The notes under the pieces were generated by a model. The model had not been told where the DNA came from. It ran no database searches and saw only the letters and a program-made list of their open reading frames with translations. A stretch of 62,140 nucleotides of DNA, taken from Thermodesulfobacteriota bacterium (GTDB lineage: Bacteria > Desulfobacterota > UBA8473). Of this stretch, positions 14,463 through 23,830 are shown piece by piece; within the stretch, counting starts at the first letter, position 1; the number at the start of each line of letters is the position of its first letter. A program made the translations under genes and the position numbers. The DNA lies in contig JBFLWQ010000021.1 of NCBI GenBank assembly GCA_040757775.1, forward strand, positions 1 to 62,140, given 5' to 3'.

Positions 14463-14931
14463 ATTTTTTCCTATTGATTAAGAGCTTAAAGGGCTGCGCC
14501 CAGTTAGAGTTTTGGAATAATGGAAGACTAGAATAGTATTATGCAAAAATAGTCAATTAACCCTGAAGGAAATGAAATACAATGTTATCAAAGAAAGAAG
14601 ATAGTAGTCAACAACAAAAGTTACTACCTGAGTCATCGTAAATAAACCATGAACTATAGTTATAAAGAATTTATCATGTTCTGCTTTTTCACATGCTCTG
14701 CTTTTCCTTGACTTTTTTATAAATTTTGTTTAGTCTATCAACTTCAAAGTTAAACAGTGAAATGATGCCTTTGCATAAACTGCCGATTGATAGTGCTTAC
14801 AGAGCCATTTTCACAGCGATACTAAAGAACATTTGGGACATCATGTGTCGGCAGATGGCTTTCAATACACTCCGTACTATTTATGTGAAAAAATTTCAAG
14901 GGCATCATTTAAAGAAAGGAGTTTATTTTAT
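14463..14931. other. Intergenic stretch between selB and mltD, no supported gene
   Basis: This 469-base gap separates divergent genes. Short frames exist (one reads into mltD from 14833) but lack ribosome binding sites or family resemblance. A possible promoter for mltD (TTGACT in a T-rich block near 14708-14740) is weak. No tRNA-like fold was found, including selC. Confidence 0.4.
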
Positions 14932-16437
14932 ATGTGTAATGCTGATGATATAGGTAAATCAATATTGAGACCCATTACAGTTACAAACGTTATTATTTTA
15001 GTCTTATTTGTCTCTCTTTTTTCCACAGGATGGGTTAAATCGGATACAACAAAAACACTGTCTAATAATGGGGGCGTTTATTCTGATGATCACGATTTTA
15101 TGCTTAAAGATGATGGGGATATTCAGGAATCTACTGTTCCACCTGATTTATTAAAAGAGCAGGCAAATGAAGGACCCATTGCGGAAAGCGAGGAATCTGA
15201 CTACGAAAACCAGAATGTGATTTCTGAAAAGGAAAAGAAGTATGATATCCCCATTGTAGTTAATGAAAGTGTTGAGAATTTCATCCATTATTTTCAAACA
15301 AGCAATAGGAAGGTCTTTTTGAAATGGTTGTCCATGGCACAAAGGTATCTTCCAATGATGAAAGAGATATTCAGGAAAAATGGTTTGCCCGAAGATATTG
15401 TCTATCTGGCAATGATAGAAAGTGGTTTTAATCCTAAGGCATATTCTCGTGCCCATGCCAGCGGACCCTGGCAGTTCATTAAAGGAACAGGGCAAAGATA
15501 CGGACTGAAGATTAATAGGTGGCTCGATGAGAGGAGGGACCCTGAAAAATCCACTATAGCTGCAGCAAAATACTTGAAAAATCTTTATGATATGTTTGGT
15601 TGCTGGTATCTGGCTGCGGCTGCTTATAATGCAGGGGAAAATAAGATTGTACAGGCGATTGATATATATAACACCAGAGATTTCTGGGAGATAGCAAGGC
15701 ATCCCTATCTCGCGAGAGAGACAAAGGACTTTGTGCCTCAACTGATAGCCAGTGTGATTATAGCTAAGGATCCTGAAAAATACGGTTTCGATGACATAGA
15801 TTACAAGCTCCCATTTACATATAACAAAGTCCATGTTCCTGCTACTACCAACCTGAAGGTCATTGCTAGGGCGTGTAAAACGGATTACGATACTATAAAG
15901 ATGTTAAATCCTGAACTGAAAAAAGGATGTACACCTCCAAACTATCCTGATTATGAACTTAGGGTTCCCATAGGAAGAAAAGAGGTATTTGCGAAAAATT
16001 TTGACAAGACAGAGCCTAGCGAGAGATCTACCTTCACAAGACACACTGTCAAAAGGGGAGAAACTCTTTCAAGGATTGCCAGCCTGTACGATACCAGTAC
16101 AGAGCCGATCATGCGGTTAAATAAGATAAAAAATTCAAGGAGTATAAAAGCTGGAAGGACTCTGATTATCCCTGTTAGAAGTTCTAAAATTGCGAAGAGA
16201 GACACAGATAAAAAAAGAGGTTTCATTCTTAGTAAGGTTGCAAAAAAAGGATACCTGGAATCTGAAAGAAAGGAGATAATGTATACTGTAAGAAAAGGGG
16301 ATACCCTATGGAATATTGCTCAGAGGTACGATCTGAAAACTTCAGAGATTCGATATTGGAATAAAATGGGGATTAAGGATACTATACACACAGGAACTAC
16401 TTTAAGATTAATGGTAAAATTGGATCTGGACACCTAA
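14932..16437 (+). CDS. mltD: MltD-like membrane-bound lytic transglycosylase with two LysM domains
   Basis: A 501-residue peptidoglycan-cleaving enzyme of the envelope. After a cytoplasmic start, a hydrophobic segment (about residues 14-31) anchors or exports it. The SLT domain (about 150-275) has the catalytic Glu in YLAMIESGFNP, then ASGPWQFI and YNAGENK. Two LysM peptidoglycan-binding domains follow, one near 395-440 (HTVKRGETLSRIASLY) and one near 450-500 (YTVRKGDTLWNIAQRY). The ATG at 14932 is chosen because AAAGGAG precedes it; the frame is open further upstream without a site. A terminator-like hairpin follows the gene. Confidence 0.9.
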   Translation: MCNADDIGKSILRPITVTNVIILVLFVSLFSTGWVKSDTTKTLSNNGGVYSDDHDFMLKDDGDIQESTVPPDLLKEQANEGPIAESEESDYENQNVISEKEKKYDIPIVVNESVENFIHYFQTSNRKVFLKWLSMAQRYLPMMKEIFRKNGLPEDIVYLAMIESGFNPKAYSRAHASGPWQFIKGTGQRYGLKINRWLDERRDPEKSTIAAAKYLKNLYDMFGCWYLAAAAYNAGENKIVQAIDIYNTRDFWEIARHPYLARETKDFVPQLIASVIIAKDPEKYGFDDIDYKLPFTYNKVHVPATTNLKVIARACKTDYDTIKMLNPELKKGCTPPNYPDYELRVPIGRKEVFAKNFDKTEPSERSTFTRHTVKRGETLSRIASLYDTSTEPIMRLNKIKNSRSIKAGRTLIIPVRSSKIAKRDTDKKRGFILSKVAKKGYLESERKEIMYTVRKGDTLWNIAQRYDLKTSEIRYWNKMGIKDTIHTGTTLRLMVKLDLDT

Positions 16438-16634: not shown

Positions 16635-18125
16635 ATGGAACACAGATATGGGCTAAAGACTTTAATAGGGATAATTATAGCTTCCTTTGTAGTGGGTATA
16701 ATTGTGGCTTCAGAACTGAAGTTGACGCCCTCTTTAAAGGCTATTTCTACTTTTGGAGTAGAAAAGGATAGGGATGGTGAAAACAAATCATCAACAGTAC
16801 CCACCCAGCTGCCATCTTTTGTTGAACTGGCAAAAGAGTTAAAACCAGCAGTTGTCAATATCAGTACTACAAAGGTTATTCATAGAGGGAGGCAGGGATT
16901 TACACCTTTTCAGAGTCCTTTTGGTGAAAGAAGCCCTTTTAGAGACTTTTTCGATAAATTTTTTGAGGACATGGTACCCAAAGATTTCAAACAGACCAGT
17001 TTGGGGTCAGGATTTATTATTGACGAGGATGGTTATATTTTGACCAATTACCATGTGATCCAAGGTGCCGATGAGATAAAGGTCAAACTCTCAAATGAGA
17101 AGGAGTTTAAAGCAGAAATAATAGGAAAAGACCCCAAAACCGATATTGCATTAATAAAGATAAAATCCTGGAAAAACCTGCCTGTAGTTAAGCTGGGTGA
17201 CTCAGATAAGTTGGAGGTAGGAGAATGGGTAGTTGCCATTGGTAATCCTTTCGGGCTCGATCATACAGTTACAGCAGGAATTGTAAGCGCTAAAGGAAGA
17301 ATTATCGGAGCTGGTCCCTATGATAATTTTATACAGACCGATGCTTCTATAAATCCGGGGAACAGCGGAGGTCCCTTGATTAACCTGAAAGGAGAGGTGA
17401 TTGGCATCAATACCGCCATTATTGCCAGTGGGCAGGGGATAGGTTTTGCAATCCCGGTTAATATGGCAAAGGGGCTTATCCCCCAACTCAAAGAAAAGGG
17501 GAAGGTAATTCGAGGATGGTTGGGTATTGTGATACAGAAGGTCACCCCTGATCTGGCCAAATCATTCGGGTTGAGAGAGACTGAAGGCGCGCTGGTAGCT
17601 GATGTTGTGGAAGGTAGTCCTGCGGATAAAGCAGGGATTAAGCGAGGGGACATAATAATAGAAGTAGACGGTGAAAAGATCGACGAGATAAATAAGTTAT
17701 CAAGGTTTGTAGCAACTCTTAATGTGGGGAAGGAAGCAAAAATAAAAATTATCAGAGACGGGAAGGAAAGTACATTAAAGGTTATAATTGGAGAATTTCC
17801 AGAGAAGGAAATAGTCGCTTCAAAGGGAGAAGTAAGAGAAAAGCTGGGGATGGTAGTGCAAAATCTGACCCCGGATATTGCAAAACAGTTCGGATACATA
17901 GGCGAAAAGGGGGTCTTGGTAACCGATGTTGTTGCAGGCAGCCCGGCAGATGAGGCTGGAATAAAACAAGGAGACCTGATAAAAGAGATAAACCGTAACC
18001 CCGTTAAAGATTTGAGAAATTATATGGCTATCCTGAACAGGGTAAAAGGAGATAACCTTCTTCTACTTATCAGGAGAGCCGATAGTGCACTATATATAGT
18101 GCTTAAGATGCCGGGAAAGGAATGA
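16635..18125 (+). CDS. DegP/HtrA (Do) periplasmic serine protease
   Basis: A 496-residue envelope quality-control protease/chaperone. A hydrophobic N-terminal segment (about 9-28) serves as signal or anchor. The trypsin-like domain holds the triad His140 (NYHVIQG), Asp170 (KTDIALIKI) and Ser244 (GNSGGPLIN). Two PDZ domains follow (about 295-385 and 400-490), as in DegP/DegQ, and each contains a GSPAD..AGIK motif. AAAAGGAGGA precedes the ATG. It is the first gene of an apparent operon with amgK and the RapZ-C/MurU fusion (gaps of 24 and about 5 bases), tying proteolysis and cell-wall recycling to one transcript. Confidence 0.95.
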   Translation: MEHRYGLKTLIGIIIASFVVGIIVASELKLTPSLKAISTFGVEKDRDGENKSSTVPTQLPSFVELAKELKPAVVNISTTKVIHRGRQGFTPFQSPFGERSPFRDFFDKFFEDMVPKDFKQTSLGSGFIIDEDGYILTNYHVIQGADEIKVKLSNEKEFKAEIIGKDPKTDIALIKIKSWKNLPVVKLGDSDKLEVGEWVVAIGNPFGLDHTVTAGIVSAKGRIIGAGPYDNFIQTDASINPGNSGGPLINLKGEVIGINTAIIASGQGIGFAIPVNMAKGLIPQLKEKGKVIRGWLGIVIQKVTPDLAKSFGLRETEGALVADVVEGSPADKAGIKRGDIIIEVDGEKIDEINKLSRFVATLNVGKEAKIKIIRDGKESTLKVIIGEFPEKEIVASKGEVREKLGMVVQNLTPDIAKQFGYIGEKGVLVTDVVAGSPADEAGIKQGDLIKEINRNPVKDLRNYMAILNRVKGDNLLLLIRRADSALYIVLKMPGKE

Positions 18126-18149: not shown

Positions 18150-19271
18150 ATGCTTGATTCCACATCTCATTCAAAACTAAAAAAACAATTCGATATCCTT
18201 CTAAAAAAATCCTGTAATATAAATTTGCTGAAGATGGACTCCTTACCTGGAGATGCATCAAAGCGGAAGTATTTCCGCCTGTGCCATGATGAGGGAACTT
18301 TGATTGGTGTCTATGGGCAGGATGAAAAAGAAAATCGCTCTTTTATATATTTTTGCAACCACTTATACTCCGTGGGACTCCCTGTTCCCAGGTTGTACGC
18401 AAGCAGTATTGATAAAGGGATCTACATAATTGAAGACCTGGGAGATGAAACCCTTGCCGAAAGGATTTCATCTCCTTCCATATCTAAAGAAGAGATACTC
18501 TCCCTCTACATACAAAGTGCAAAAGACCTGGTTCATTTTCAGATTTTGGGACATGTGGGTATTGATTATGAACATAATTGTCACCAGAGCCCGGTGTTTG
18601 ACCGAAAGAATATAGAAGATGACCTCCAATATTTTATGACCAATTTTTTTGTCCTGGCAAATGATTATTTAAAAATAGCTGGGATAGAAAACGAACTAAA
18701 CAGATTAACAGATATTTTAGCGGGGCATCAGCCCATGTTTTTCCTTTATCGGGATTTTCAATGCAGAAATATAATTGTTCGCCCTGATAGGAGCCTCGGG
18801 TACGTTGACTTTCAGGCAGGTCGTCAGGGACCACTCCAATATGATGTTGCAACCCTACTCTATGCCTCTAAAGCAAATATCTCCGATGAAGAAAGAAAAA
18901 TCATTTTATCCAATTATTTAAATCAACTGGAAAGAGTGATAGCGTCTGGGAAAGATTCAAAAGAGATGAGAAAAATTTTGGATTCAGCAAGGCTGGTAAC
19001 CCGGAATGACTTTATGTCCAACTATTATTTTTTCGTCCTTTTCAGGATTTTACGGGCATTAGGGGTTTATCTGTTTTTGGCGGTTCAGGAGGGGCACTGG
19101 AGGTTTTTAGAAGGAGTCCCTGAGGCATCAAAGAACCTTATGAGTATTTTTTATGGGCAAAGCCTCTTAGGAGAGGTTTTGCCCCAACTTCAAAAATTTG
19201 CACAGCGATTAAGTACAGAAGATGCCTTTCTGTCTCCAACGAAGTTGATAAGCTTAATTAGTTCGCGCTGA
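18150..19271 (+). CDS. amgK: AmgK-like amino-sugar (MurNAc/GlcNAc) anomeric kinase
   Basis: A 373-residue protein of the aminoglycoside-phosphotransferase fold. AmgK phosphorylates recycled N-acetylmuramate and N-acetylglucosamine at C1 so that MurU can make UDP-sugars without de novo synthesis. The catalytic loop reads YRDFQCRNI (Tyr in place of the usual His at the first position), followed by the metal-binding segment GYVDFQAGRQGPLQYDVATLL, split here as GYVDFQAGRQ and GPLQYDVATLL. The N-terminal lobe has SLPGDASKRKYFR. Immediate linkage to a MurU-type nucleotidyltransferase supports the assignment over antibiotic resistance. Confidence 0.82.
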   Translation: MLDSTSHSKLKKQFDILLKKSCNINLLKMDSLPGDASKRKYFRLCHDEGTLIGVYGQDEKENRSFIYFCNHLYSVGLPVPRLYASSIDKGIYIIEDLGDETLAERISSPSISKEEILSLYIQSAKDLVHFQILGHVGIDYEHNCHQSPVFDRKNIEDDLQYFMTNFFVLANDYLKIAGIENELNRLTDILAGHQPMFFLYRDFQCRNIIVRPDRSLGYVDFQAGRQGPLQYDVATLLYASKANISDEERKIILSNYLNQLERVIASGKDSKEMRKILDSARLVTRNDFMSNYYFFVLFRILRALGVYLFLAVQEGHWRFLEGVPEASKNLMSIFYGQSLLGEVLPQLQKFAQRLSTEDAFLSPTKLISLISSR

Positions 19272-19276
19272 ACTAT

Positions 19277-20446
19277 TTGGTTTTAATTACAATGGACAAT
19301 AAATTAAGTGTGTCGATTTATAGCTTCGGTTTTAATTATTCCCATACCCCTGACGATCCCCATGGACACGGTGGCTATGTGTTTGATTGCAGGGGGCTAC
19401 CCAACCCAGGCAGGCAAAAAGAATTTCAGAATTATAGTGGGCTTGATAAACCGGTTGGTGATTATCTTGAGGACTATCCAGAGGTTCACCAGTTTTACAA
19501 CCTGACCCTAGAGCTTATAAAAAGTCATTGTGAGTCTTTTTCAGCACGAGGGTTGGAGCATCTTATGGTCTCTTATGGCTGTACTGGCGGACAGCATCGG
19601 TCGGTCTATATGGCTGAAAGAATGAAGAGGGACTTGACTCTGGCAGGATTTAACACAGAATGTATCCATATGGAGAAGTTCCGATGGGATACTGCCTTTG
19701 CACAGCCCTGTAGAAAGGCATTTATCTTAGCCGCTGGTCTGGGAACAAGGTTATTACCCTTAACAAAGGAAGTGCCGAAAGCACTGGTGAAACTAGGGGG
19801 GGAGGCAGTTATTGACTTAGTATCGAAGAAGTTGGTTGAAGCAGGGGTAAAGGAGATAATTGTCAATACGCATTATCTAAGCGAGCAAGTGGAGGCTCAT
19901 TTAAAAAATACGCACTTAGACTGTAGCTTTACAACAGTATACGAACCTGAGCTGCTGGATACCGGGGGAGGCTTAAAGAATACTGAAGGTTTTTGGGGAA
20001 GAGAACCTTTCTTCATTCATAATGTAGACATCATAAGTGAAACCGACCTAAAGTCAGTTTATCGCTATCACTTAGCATCAAAGAGCTTGGTTACCTTAGT
20101 GCTCCAGGAGCGGCTCTCGACGAATTATTTTGTTGTCGATTCGATGAATATTGTTTGTGGGCTTTACTATTCCCAAAAGGGTCTTATTGATGTCAGAAGG
20201 CAACACAAAGGGCCAGTTAGGCACCTGGCTTTTAATGGTATTCATGTAATTTCCCCTGAGATATTTAACGAGATCAAAGAGGTAGGAAAGTTCTCTATTG
20301 TCAGCCTTTATCTGAGATTAATAGAAGAAGGGTTTTTGATTTGTGCATATATAGATAACAGTCAACTTTTTGCAGACATCGGAAACCCCGAAGGTCTTGA
20401 AAGGGCTGACGAGTGGTTCTCTAAAACGAAAACACATATCCTTTGA
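19277..20446 (+). CDS. RapZ C-terminal domain fused to MurU-like nucleotidyltransferase
   Basis: Two domains in 389 residues. Residues about 8-135 match the RapZ C-terminal domain: VFDCRGLPNP, SGLDKPVGDYL and GCTGGQHRSVYMAE. In enterobacteria that domain senses glucosamine-6-phosphate and binds sRNA GlmZ. Residues about 150-389 are a sugar-1-phosphate nucleotidyltransferase with AAGLGTRLLPLTKEVPKAL, like MurU, which makes UDP-MurNAc from MurNAc-1-phosphate. The RapZ ATPase half is absent. The start is either the TTG at 19277 or an ATG at 19292; neither has a clear ribosome site, as expected for coupling to amgK five bases upstream. Confidence 0.85.
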   Translation: MVLITMDNKLSVSIYSFGFNYSHTPDDPHGHGGYVFDCRGLPNPGRQKEFQNYSGLDKPVGDYLEDYPEVHQFYNLTLELIKSHCESFSARGLEHLMVSYGCTGGQHRSVYMAERMKRDLTLAGFNTECIHMEKFRWDTAFAQPCRKAFILAAGLGTRLLPLTKEVPKALVKLGGEAVIDLVSKKLVEAGVKEIIVNTHYLSEQVEAHLKNTHLDCSFTTVYEPELLDTGGGLKNTEGFWGREPFFIHNVDIISETDLKSVYRYHLASKSLVTLVLQERLSTNYFVVDSMNIVCGLYYSQKGLIDVRRQHKGPVRHLAFNGIHVISPEIFNEIKEVGKFSIVSLYLRLIEEGFLICAYIDNSQLFADIGNPEGLERADEWFSKTKTHIL

Positions 20447-20491: not shown

Positions 20492-23400
20492 TCAGGGATG
20501 GCTCACTACTGCCACTGGGAAATTTACATAACCATCAGGTGTATTTGTAATCGGATGCTGTGCCCCGTTGGTTATCTTCGGCACTGTCTCCGAGACATAA
20601 GTATCAAGCTCCTTCATTGAAACCTTGTTATCCTTGATTAAGTCAGCTTTCCCGCTTATCCCCTCAATTATAGCATAAGTAAATGCCCCATGTTTCCATT
20701 TGTCTGATTCCTGAGAAAGTTCTCTGCCACGGCTTGATGTGAATATCACTGCATTTGCCTCCTGAAGCTCCTTTACAAAACGATCATTATCAACACCCCT
20801 TGTCTTCTTTCCAGCCACACCTTCTGAGTGGCAGGTGTCTGCAAATATGAGTTTTTTAGACGGCAAATCCAGTATAGCCTTCAACTCCCTCCATGGTATA
20901 GCCTTTGATTTCTTTATCGTACCGTCATTCATTATAACTGCATCAGCAGGCAAAAAATAGAAATCTCCCCTATCATCATTTATCCCATGTCCCGCTATAA
21001 ACAAAAGGACAATATCATTTGCAGATGCCTTGCTTAAATAGTTCAGGTTATCAAGGATGCTGTCGTAAGTCGGCTTTATTGAGCTGCTGTCACTGATGAT
21101 AAGGCTGTTTATTTCACGGAATAATCTTCCCTTCTGGCTTTTGAATGCCTCAACAATCCCTTCTGCATCAGCAACTGCATAAGAGAGCGGGGTTAGGTTC
21201 TTGTCCTGATATTTGTTTATTCCTATGGAGAGTATCCAGAGGTTGGGAAGGATTGCTTCTGACAGGCGGGACGCCTGTCCTGCCACTTCAAGATATATGC
21301 GGACAGATTTCCTTCCTTCGGAAAAGCCATTGAATGCTGTTACCTCTATCAGATTCTCTCCAATGTCCAGACTGACAGGGATTTTTAAATCAAGGGTTTT
21401 CTTGCCTTCAGGTACTTCTATACCTTTGGGAGTGATTTCAATCCCCCTGATGTCATTGCGAGCCCCGACAGGTCGGGGCGAAGCAATCTCACTGCCTGTA
21501 ACCTGCCTCCCGTTTACAAAGACCTTTACCCTTTTTATTGTCTGATTTCTGTCTTCAATATAAAGGGAGACTTCAGCATCAGTTGAATTCATCTTTTTCC
21601 CGTCTTCAGGTGATTTGATAACGATGAACGGCGGCTCTATGTTCTGGATTGAAGCAACTGTAACAGCGGACTTTTGTTTATCAACCCCGAGAGTTTCTGC
21701 AATCGCTTTTTGTGTATCACCAAGCCTTAATGCTGTCTCAACTATCTGAGGCTTATAGAATGCTGAACGATACTGGTCTATGCCATAGACGTTATTGCCG
21801 ATGCGGACATTCAAATGTTTGTCGCCATTGGCAGAGGAGTTGTAATAGCCTTCGGGGGTGATAATGAGCCACTCGCCATTCCTGAAACTTGCCAGCATGG
21901 CAATTTCACTGCCGGTTGCCACATTCCACATCCTCACAGTGCCATCCCAGCTTCCCGAGTATGCGTAGCGACCATCCGGGGAAAAGGCAACCGAGGAGAC
22001 CCATGTAGCGTGACCCCTGTAAGTTCTTATCTCGTTTCCCGTAGAGATGTCCCATAGCTTAAAGGTATTATCTGTGCTGCCCGACAGCACGAGCCTGCCA
22101 TCCGGTGATAAAGCAATAGAGGAAAGGCCAGGATGTCTAAACTCCCTGACCACTTCGCCTGATGATATTTCCCAGAGTTTGACGGAAGCATCAGGGTCAA
22201 AGGGATTGAATACACTGCTGATACCTAATACAATCTTCCTCCCGTCCGGAGAATACAATGCCGATTTAATACTCATAGTTTCGAAGTCTTTTGTCGTATG
22301 TATGTCAAATGTGTTCAATTCTCTGCCGCTGTAAATATCCCACACTTTGAGGGCATAGTTCTCCCTCATTGGGTAGGGGCGAGAGTAATCTCCTGTACCC
22401 GCCGAGACGGCATACTTTCCATCCCGGGAGAATGCGACTGAAAAGACAGCCCTCGTCCCGACAAATGTCCGTATCTGGCTCCCTGTCTGAACATCCCAGA
22501 GCCTTGCTGTTTTATCAAAGCCGCCTCCCGAGAGGAGATATCTGCCGTTAGGCGAAAAAACGACTGAAGTAACCTCACCTGAATGTCCGATAAAAGTCCT
22601 TAGCTCTGTTCCAGTTATCGCATCCCAGAGTTTGAAATTCTTATCGTGGCTCCCCGAAACGGCGAACCTACTGTCAGGAGAAAAGGACAGCGAATTGATC
22701 CACCCCTCATGCGCTTTGGAAGTCCTTGTCTCCTTTCCTGCCGACATGTTCCAGAATCGGACGGTACCGTCGTGTTCCCCTGAGATGATCGCTCTGCCGT
22801 CAGGAGATACGGCAATGGCGGTAACGCCTTTTACCAGGCCGGAAAACGTCCTCAAAGTGTTTCCAGTAAAAGCATTCCATAGCAGAAGTTCCCTCCTTAT
22901 CGCGCTCAATACGTTTTTGCCGTCGGGTGAAAACGCAAGAGGAGTTCCCTTTTCATCATAGGAAAAGTTCCTCACTTCTTTCCCGGAGGCTGTCTCAAAG
23001 AGCTGGAGAGGCATTTTATAGCCACCCGACAGGATATGGCTTCCGTCCGGTGATATGGCAATATGCAGATAATCCCCCATCTGCTTCTGCCATAGTTCCC
23101 CCTCGGTATTTACCTCATAGAGGCTTAAATAGTTCTTCTCCCCATAACGCATGGTCAAAATGTATTTGCCATTTTGAAGAAGCGCTGCTGAAGCTACTTT
23201 TTCCTTCCCTGTAAAGCTTTTTACCTCCTTTCCCGTTGCTACATCCCACAGCCGTACCGTTCCGTCGCTACTCCCGGAAACGACCTGACGGCCGTTTGGG
23301 GAAAAACCAACTGAGTTGACAGTACCGATATGGCCTTTGAACGTCCGCACTTCTTCTCCAGTCGCAGCATTCCAGAGCTTAAGGGTAGTATCCTCACTTC

Positions 23401-23830
23401 CGGAAAGTACATGCCTTTCATCAGGAGAAAAGACGACCGATGCTACAGGGGCAGAATGACCGGAGAAGGATTTTATTTCCTTTGCCGTTGCAATATCCCA
23501 CACCTTAACGGTGTTGTCCGAGCCGCCTGTCAGCAATGAACGGCTGTCAGGTGAAAAAGCAGCACTTATGACCTTATCTGCCTCGCTGAAAAAAGCCCGT
23601 ATCTCCTTTTCCTTGGCAACGTCCCAGAGTCTGAAGCAGTACTCCCCTCCCTGCTTTGACAGGAAGTATTTTCCGTCAGGCGAAAAAAACGCAGTGTGGA
23701 TATCGCCTGATCCTGTGTGCCCCAACTGCACAAAAATCTCAGACTTTTCAGCGGCGATTGCGGGGTTAAAACCTGCTGCAATGGCAAAAAATAGTAAAGA
23801 CATCAGACCAAACCATTTTTGCCTTCTCAT
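20492..23830 (-). CDS. Exported WD40-repeat caspase (peptidase C14) protein
   Basis: A 1112-residue protein with a Sec signal peptide (residues 1-26, ending AIAA). Residues about 35-640 are WD40 repeats (typical unit: SVVFSPDERHVLSGSEDTTL, then KLWNAATGEE), probably two beta-propellers. A linker with Ig-like strands (about 720-840) leads to a caspase domain (about 860-1105) that opens LWILSIGINKY. The dyad is His948 in IAGHGIND and Cys1000 in FADTCHSEG. Two palindromic intergenic-type repeats are inserted in frame in the linker (residues 781-793 and about 850-857). It likely acts in the periplasm or outside; the substrate is unknown. Convergent with the RapZ-C/MurU gene. Confidence 0.9.
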   Translation of the reverse strand: MRRQKWFGLMSLLFFAIAAGFNPAIAAEKSEIFVQLGHTGSGDIHTAFFSPDGKYFLSKQGGEYCFRLWDVAKEKEIRAFFSEADKVISAAFSPDSRSLLTGGSDNTVKVWDIATAKEIKSFSGHSAPVASVVFSPDERHVLSGSEDTTLKLWNAATGEEVRTFKGHIGTVNSVGFSPNGRQVVSGSSDGTVRLWDVATGKEVKSFTGKEKVASAALLQNGKYILTMRYGEKNYLSLYEVNTEGELWQKQMGDYLHIAISPDGSHILSGGYKMPLQLFETASGKEVRNFSYDEKGTPLAFSPDGKNVLSAIRRELLLWNAFTGNTLRTFSGLVKGVTAIAVSPDGRAIISGEHDGTVRFWNMSAGKETRTSKAHEGWINSLSFSPDSRFAVSGSHDKNFKLWDAITGTELRTFIGHSGEVTSVVFSPNGRYLLSGGGFDKTARLWDVQTGSQIRTFVGTRAVFSVAFSRDGKYAVSAGTGDYSRPYPMRENYALKVWDIYSGRELNTFDIHTTKDFETMSIKSALYSPDGRKIVLGISSVFNPFDPDASVKLWEISSGEVVREFRHPGLSSIALSPDGRLVLSGSTDNTFKLWDISTGNEIRTYRGHATWVSSVAFSPDGRYAYSGSWDGTVRMWNVATGSEIAMLASFRNGEWLIITPEGYYNSSANGDKHLNVRIGNNVYGIDQYRSAFYKPQIVETALRLGDTQKAIAETLGVDKQKSAVTVASIQNIEPPFIVIKSPEDGKKMNSTDAEVSLYIEDRNQTIKRVKVFVNGRQVTGSEIASPRPVGARNDIRGIEITPKGIEVPEGKKTLDLKIPVSLDIGENLIEVTAFNGFSEGRKSVRIYLEVAGQASRLSEAILPNLWILSIGINKYQDKNLTPLSYAVADAEGIVEAFKSQKGRLFREINSLIISDSSSIKPTYDSILDNLNYLSKASANDIVLLFIAGHGINDDRGDFYFLPADAVIMNDGTIKKSKAIPWRELKAILDLPSKKLIFADTCHSEGVAGKKTRGVDNDRFVKELQEANAVIFTSSRGRELSQESDKWKHGAFTYAIIEGISGKADLIKDNKVSMKELDTYVSETVPKITNGAQHPITNTPDGYVNFPVAVVSHP
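21261..21279. repeat. Palindrome GACAGGCG-GGA-CGCCTGTC inside the WD40-caspase gene
   Basis: An 8-bp perfect inverted repeat with 3-base loop, read in frame as part of AGQASRLSEA at the junction between linker and caspase domain. It has the form of a REP-type intergenic palindrome. Confidence 0.7.
21452..21490. repeat. GTCATTGCGA...GAAGCAATCTC repeat inside the WD40-caspase gene
   Basis: A 39-base element with inner 8-bp arms GCCCCGAC/GTCGGGGC, read in frame as EIASPRPVGARND (residues 781-793). It has the same outline (TTGCGAG ... GAAGCAA) as the intergenic repeat at 33889-33967. Confidence 0.7.

Follow-up and report, generated by a model that had tools for sequence, protein, structure and literature searches.

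Positions 18150-20446 of the DNA analysed here, 62,140 nucleotides from a Thermodesulfobacteriota bacterium (contig JBFLWQ010000021.1; this whole stretch is called the window below), contain two genes. One codes for an AmgK-like kinase (18150-19271, 373 aa) and the other (19292-20446, 384 aa) for a protein in which the C-terminal domain of RapZ (RapZ_C) is fused to a MurU-like nucleotidyltransferase. RapZ_C is very probably a functional part of the AmgK-MurU salvage of the cell wall. Within this role we propose it as a putative cysteine-dependent phosphatase of N-acetylmuramic acid 6-phosphate (MurNAc-6-phosphate), a prediction of both catalysis and substrate to which we assign a probability of roughly 0.45. 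Lytic transglycosylases, NagZ and AnmK would convert old wall into MurNAc-6-phosphate, RapZ_C would take off the 6-phosphate by means of its C97-x5-R103 loop, AmgK would phosphorylate the freed MurNAc at C1 and MurU would turn the AmgK product into uridine diphosphate-MurNAc (UDP-MurNAc). RapZ_C would thus fill the role that the HAD enzyme MupP has in Pseudomonas, with an unrelated fold. A broader and more tentative version is that RapZ_C domains could be at root sugar-phosphate phosphatases. The subtype with Cys183, Gly190 and Gln251 (Escherichia coli numbering throughout) would then be the MurNAc-6-phosphate phosphatase of an AmgK-RapZ_C-MurU unit common to the Bacteroidales and one deltaproteobacterial family, and the small RNA (sRNA) regulator of E. 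coli a retooled member.

The initial annotation, made from the sequence alone, had described a RapZ C-terminal domain with an intact GCTGGQHRSV motif and no ATPase half, joined to a MurU-like domain, and the profile searches agree. RapZ_C occupies residues 6-127 (19307-19672, + strand; PF22740, 105.4 bits against a cut-off of 27) and the nucleotidyltransferase residues 142-374 (19715-20413, + strand; PF00483 NTP_transferase, 70.2 bits, cut-off 21.2), while the P-loop ATPase half of RapZ (PF03668) was not found by Pfam in the 384 aa. The gene starts with the ATG at 19292 (an alternative TTG at 19277 is the mechanical start of the open reading frame). GCTGGQHRSV is found at residues 96-105 and includes, from sequence and modelled secondary structure, the C-x5-R-S loop CTGGQHRS (residues 97-104, 19580-19603, + strand). 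Asp32-Cys33-Arg34 (19385-19393, + strand) correspond to D182-V183-R184 of E. coli in a 50-row alignment. The best PDB relatives are the E. coli RapZ C-terminal domain (RapZ-CTD, 5o5s) for one half and Pseudomonas-type MurU (8hhd, 4y7t) for the other, which aligns with these chains and retains the motifs AAGLGTRLLPLTKEVPKAL, DTGGG, NVD and DIG. The kinase, also on the + strand, has the aminoglycoside phosphotransferase (APH) fold (PF01636, 48.8 bits, cut-off 23.2) and its nearest PDB chain is 3csv. In NCBIfam the nucleotidyltransferase half scored best with MurU (112.1 and 107.2 bits) and the kinase with AmgK (55.3 and 53.5 bits). Because these scores are far below the curated cut-offs (370 and 250, and 500 and 550, respectively), the names AmgK and MurU are used here only in the sense of '-like', not as equivalogs.

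The three modules have a counterpart in another phylum. When a plasmid collection was searched with the fusion, Bacteroides finegoldii, Parabacteroides distasonis and Phocaeicola massiliensis matched colinearly along 95-98% of its length. In the two annotated Bacteroidales matches a 476 aa protein consists of an APH kinase followed by a RapZ C-terminal domain, again without the ATPase half (Pfam), and a MurU-like gene lies immediately downstream. For the B. finegoldii pair the best family was AmgK for the kinase half and MurU for the partner, both below the NCBIfam cut-offs, and the kinases of the window and of the Bacteroidales have the motifs YRDFQxRN and DFQ in common. MurU was directly downstream of AmgK-RapZ_C in 7/8 loci examined (counting four scaffolds from feces that were submitted as 'Bacteriophage sp.' and one Prevotella, the exception, with MurU elsewhere in the record). 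All these Bacteroidales copies come from plasmid and phage collections. The records L173-L176 (MT836462, MT837443, MT837446 and MT839161), labelled 'UNVERIFIED: Bacteriophage sp.', carry AmgK-RapZ_C plus MurU and resemble pieces of bacterial chromosomes. In RefSeq the AmgK-RapZ_C proteins at L169:4984-6414 and L170:4981-6411 are called 'RNase adapter RapZ', a misnomer.

The Bacteroidales pair (WP_237923178.1, 'RNase adapter RapZ', and WP_237923181.1) has the three modules in the order AmgK, RapZ_C, MurU, as in the window, but fused at a different joint: RapZ_C is attached to AmgK and MurU is free in the Bacteroidales, while in the window RapZ_C is attached to MurU and AmgK is free. Opposite joints with a constant module order suggest a Rosetta-stone link of RapZ_C to both enzymes. 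In the RapZ_C tree (50 rows) the fusion copies grouped with those of the Bacteroidales (0.988 FastTree support, 99 ultrafast bootstrap), and so did the deltaproteobacterial copies of the fusion family in the trees of MurU (32 rows, 0.983) and AmgK (26 rows, 0.992); the RapZ_C sampled from the phylum and the MurU and AmgK sampled from its other families fell elsewhere. Judged by these trees, the units of the two phyla share descent; because sampling is thin, we take this as kinship of the units and not as a direction of transfer. The opposite joint and the grouping of the three modules also uphold the connection of the domain with muropeptide salvage that had been proposed at the outset. That the fusion is a recent duplicate of the host RapZ was considered and rejected: the genome (G000) has a second, complete RapZ (288 aa) on another contig (G000:C11), and the RapZ_C of the fusion is placed apart from it in the trees, with the Bacteroidales.

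The same architecture was searched for in 297 genomes of the phylum, where the initial annotation had left room for a fusion unique to this assembly. It was found complete in six, all of one deltaproteobacterial family: the genome of the window, 4/4 congeners sampled (85% identity) and a single genome from a second genus (72%). The fusion was not found in the remaining two genomes of the family, G164 (85% complete) and G212 (78% complete). It forms a single open frame in 6/6 carriers, and both halves are under purifying selection because dN/dS (nonsynonymous to synonymous rate ratio) against the window copy was 0.11-0.22 for RapZ_C and 0.09-0.16 for MurU; closer pairs within the genus were noisy, up to 0.62. 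Six genomes, an open frame and purifying selection led us to reject an artefact of a single assembly. One carrier (G108) has its amgK split in two overlapping frames (L065:8557-9667), a frameshift or assembly error; it was kept for the fusion counts and its split AmgK left out. A wider contig scan with clade-specific patterns gave five loci in 95 stretches, from the same metagenome-assembled genomes as G075, G039, G137, G108 and G189, and viral contigs scanned with either the complete fusion or AmgK-RapZ_C yielded no relatives. Genome counts from profiles are lower bounds, as Bacillus subtilis, whose YvcJ is described as a RapZ homologue (PMC7525490), was not among the control genomes matching PF03668/PF22740. 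In other families of the phylum MurU and AmgK adjoined or were fused without RapZ_C in 20/24 loci examined, and with RapZ_C in 0/24.

RapZ_C without the ATPase half is also found elsewhere. Four genomes of another family of the phylum (f15) have it (L069:7333-7707, L070:8542-8910, L072:8549-9304, L074:8400-8768). Each of the four genomes gave this one RapZ_C match, and beside it lies a gene recognised as a CLC chloride channel through Pfam (L069, L070) or by eye (L072, L074). The open frame of L072 extends beyond the domain (251 aa), and L074 also has a phasin-like gene and an ABC1/UbiB-type kinase gene nearby. The phage-type contigs L107-L125 (IMG/VR) and 28 records of the phage collection code for RapZ_C on its own, in proteins that keep the Cys loop and, in the frames read, are about 115 aa long. 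PHROG 18111 and some records label these phage copies 'ATPase' or 'RNA binding protein' despite there being no ATPase half.

The residues of RapZ_C separate the copies of the unit from the rest. Cys183, Gly190 and Gln251 were present in 9/9 rows of the subtype (six fusions and three Bacteroidales), while among the other 41 rows (E. coli, the host RapZ, 23 from the phylum and 16 from viral contigs) Cys183 and Gly190 were found in none and Gln251 in one. Five further Bacteroidales-type sequences have the three residues too (by eye), and both the Bacteroidales and the window RapZ_C have a DPxGxGG-type insertion. Asp182, Arg184, Cys247, His252, Arg253 and Ser254 were kept in 50/50 rows, stand-alone viral copies included. 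Of the pocket, the subtype retains C247, T248, G249, H252 and R253, and H190 is replaced by a Gly that would leave space for a bulkier sugar. A model of the RapZ_C half, built with 22 sequences, reached a predicted local distance difference test (pLDDT) score of 89.4 and superposed on E. coli RapZ (5o5q) with a VIA-align Z of 19.9 and a root mean square deviation of 1.7 A over 125 residues. In this model the strand 90-97 ends at Cys97 and a helix starts at Arg103, with the C-x5-R-S loop between them. The fold is phosphofructokinase (PFK)-like and only RapZ stands out among its relatives; the Z of PFK and of unrelated folds is close to 6. The model of the full-length 384 aa fusion (pLDDT 34.6 with six sequences) was too poor to place the two domains relative to each other.

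Previous work on E. coli RapZ is consistent with chemistry in this pocket. The homology of the pocket with the loop found in cysteine-dependent tyrosine phosphatases has been noted, together with a proposal that glucosamine-6-phosphate (GlcN6P) is slowly hydrolysed (PMC7199280). The changes C247A and C247S are reported to abolish RapZ function, and the crystal density of GlcN6P was altered, the product being possibly transformed (PMC9841335). Phosphatase activity has also been attributed to YvcJ of B. subtilis (PMC7525490).

The gene content of the carriers is the other element of the argument. In Pseudomonas, AnmK makes MurNAc-6-phosphate, MupP removes the phosphate, and AmgK and MurU make UDP-MurNAc, with no MurQ (PMC5371407). 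In E. coli K-12, loss of murQ leads to a build-up of MurNAc-6-phosphate (PMC5371407). AnmK was over the cut-off in 28/297 genomes of the phylum, namely 6/6 fusion carriers (G189 with just a fragment that lies where a contig stops) and 22/291 others. MurQ exceeded its cut-off in none of the six carriers, and in half (11/22) of the other AnmK genomes. NagZ is present in G000. The presence of AnmK without MurQ fits a need for a MurNAc-6-phosphate phosphatase met by RapZ_C, a fit and not a proof. AnmK and RapZ_C were both not found in G164 (85% complete), as the phosphatase idea would predict. Among ten HAD proteins examined in G000 none passes the MupP model (best 85.1 bits, cut-off 359), and the neighbourhood of the one with the top score has no recognised wall genes (by eye). 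RapZ_C itself is not a HAD by Pfam, so not of the MupP family. A clean pattern of presence and absence of MupP was sought and not obtained: the model passes in 0/22 genomes and the weak scores are highest in the genus of the fusion. NamZ, found in 2/8 genomes of the family, was rejected as a marker since one of the two is the fusion carrier G039, making free MurNAc produced by NamZ compatible with the fusion.

Several observations weigh against a MurNAc-6-phosphate phosphatase. Weak Gph-like HAD matches, scoring up to 94 bits, occur in the carriers and are themselves candidates for the MurNAc-6-phosphate step. Eleven other AnmK genomes of the phylum have neither MurQ nor the fusion and must therefore solve this step otherwise. 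The six carriers are one family, and their association with AnmK is not phylogenetically independent. The control genome of Bacteroides ihuae matches the models of both AnmK and MurQ, so that a phosphatase would compete there with MurQ. There was no tyrosine phosphatase among the listed Foldseek and VIA matches of the RapZ_C model. E. coli RapZ, a known binder of GlcN6P, has the same Cys loop, and the subtype no longer has the His190 that is essential to the E. coli protein, though position 190 is mostly Tyr elsewhere.

The initial annotation had taken the domain for an amino-sugar sensor that controls MurU. An allosteric sensor of this kind would bind GlcN6P, N-acetylglucosamine 6-phosphate or MurNAc-6-phosphate without turnover and tune MurU (in the window) or AmgK (in the Bacteroidales) to precursor supply. 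The dissociation constants reported for GlcN6P in E. coli, 10 nM for RapZ-CTD and 186 nM for the full-length protein (PMC7073468), the intact phosphate-binding loop and the fusion to either pathway enzyme, as a regulator could have, would all suit it. The GlcN6P site, however, appears altered, with Gly190 in 9/9 subtype rows, and no result here requires an invariant Cys for binding alone. Because the Cys-x5-Arg-Ser loop is kept but H190 has become Gly, the ligand need not be GlcN6P. The sensor is not supported in the form proposed, and an enzymatic role, as a phosphatase, seems at least as likely as a sensory one; we regard the sensor as the main alternative, possible but somewhat unlikely. 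Were it true, a feedback switch would be built into wall salvage.

It is less probable still that RapZ_C is an assembly module that holds AmgK and MurU together for channelling, with folding or some unrelated ligand as the reason why its loop is kept. E. coli RapZ-CTD is reported to dimerise (PMC5737377), and fusion to either partner in a constant order would be expected of such a module; yet the strict retention of C, H, R, S, D and R in 50/50 rows would be left unexplained, as would the 20/24 loci of the phylum that pair MurU and AmgK without it. Least probable by far is that RapZ_C regulates by binding RNA, as its E. coli counterpart does, with a small RNA or its own mRNA as the target. GlmY/GlmZ are bound by the RapZ-CTD of E. 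coli (PMC5737377, PMC9841335), and seven basic residues are described as RNA contacts (K170, R184, K194, R196, R211, R238 and K251; PMC9841335). In the window copy six of these are replaced (K170N, K194E, R196Q, R211D, R238L, K251Q) and only R184 is kept. At position 238 the fusion has Leu or Phe, where 24/24 non-fusion bacterial rows sampled from the phylum are basic. The argument from residues is not absolute, given that the Bacteroidales copies retain K170 and R184 and a basic residue at 194. Loss of RNA binding thus appears clearer for the fusion than for them, and the independence from the sRNA pathway suggested at the outset stands for the window copy and is weaker for the Bacteroidales. 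A putative phosphatase remains our preferred role for RapZ_C.

The initial annotation had placed the fusion beside AmgK and htrA, and an HtrA/Deg-type protease with PDZ domains (16635-18125; Pfam Trypsin_2 and PDZ) does precede the kinase gene on the same strand. Upstream of it is a gene for an MltD-like lytic transglycosylase with SLT (97.5 bits) and LysM (100.8 bits) domains (14833-16437), giving the order mltD-like, htrA, amgK-like, fusion on the + strand. MltD-like lytic transglycosylases release 1,6-anhydro-muropeptides. The position of htrA upstream of amgK is kept in five related fusion loci examined, and the mltD-like gene is upstream in 4/4 genus sisters examined but was not seen in the G189 stretch. 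The order htrA-amgK-fusion is constant within the genus, while in G189 it is broken by genes on the opposite strand. On the other side, and facing the fusion gene, the - strand codes for a 1112 aa protein with many WD40 repeats (20492-23830), the C-terminal part of which is caspase-like by eye (GHGINDD ... DTCHSEG).

None of the papers listed in our literature searches, judged by titles, starts of abstracts and, where given, term counts, connects RapZ with MurU or AmgK. New with respect to the literature searched are the AmgK-RapZ_C-MurU unit, the two ways in which it is fused and its RapZ_C subtype; the phosphatase-like loop of RapZ is not, having been published for E. coli (PMC7199280). Nearly all work on RapZ has concerned its role as an sRNA adapter; for the C-terminal pocket, the authors of the E. 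coli studies suspect that GlcN6P is hydrolysed (PMC7199280, PMC9841335). A RapZ_C that is detached from RNA regulation and joined to two enzymes of the same pathway would be a direct test of this pocket chemistry, and a candidate MurNAc-6-phosphate phosphatase outside Pseudomonas-type bacteria. It also corrects a name, as a Bacteroidales 'RNase adapter RapZ' can be an AmgK-RapZ_C protein without the RapZ ATPase half.

Compared with RapZ/YvcJ, the fusion has the C-terminal domain, its fold (Z 19.9) and the Cys loop in common and differs in having no ATPase half, mostly changed RNA-contact residues and Gly in place of His190. A closer neighbour in taxonomy is found in G164, of a sister genus, which has a compact NagZ-NamZ-MurU-AmgK operon (L068:1449-6285), its MurU domain being followed by a match to a left-handed-helix-like repeat. 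It belongs to the same bacterial family as the window and has the same end of the pathway, but its AmgK and MurU are of another lineage, and the operon would yield free MurNAc by means of NamZ. The MupP-AmgK-MurU route of Pseudomonas putida resembles that of the carriers in its AmgK-like and MurU-like enzymes, the presence of AnmK and the absence of MurQ. They differ at the MupP step, where no HAD protein examined in G000 reaches the MupP cut-off and RapZ_C is the candidate in the place of MupP.

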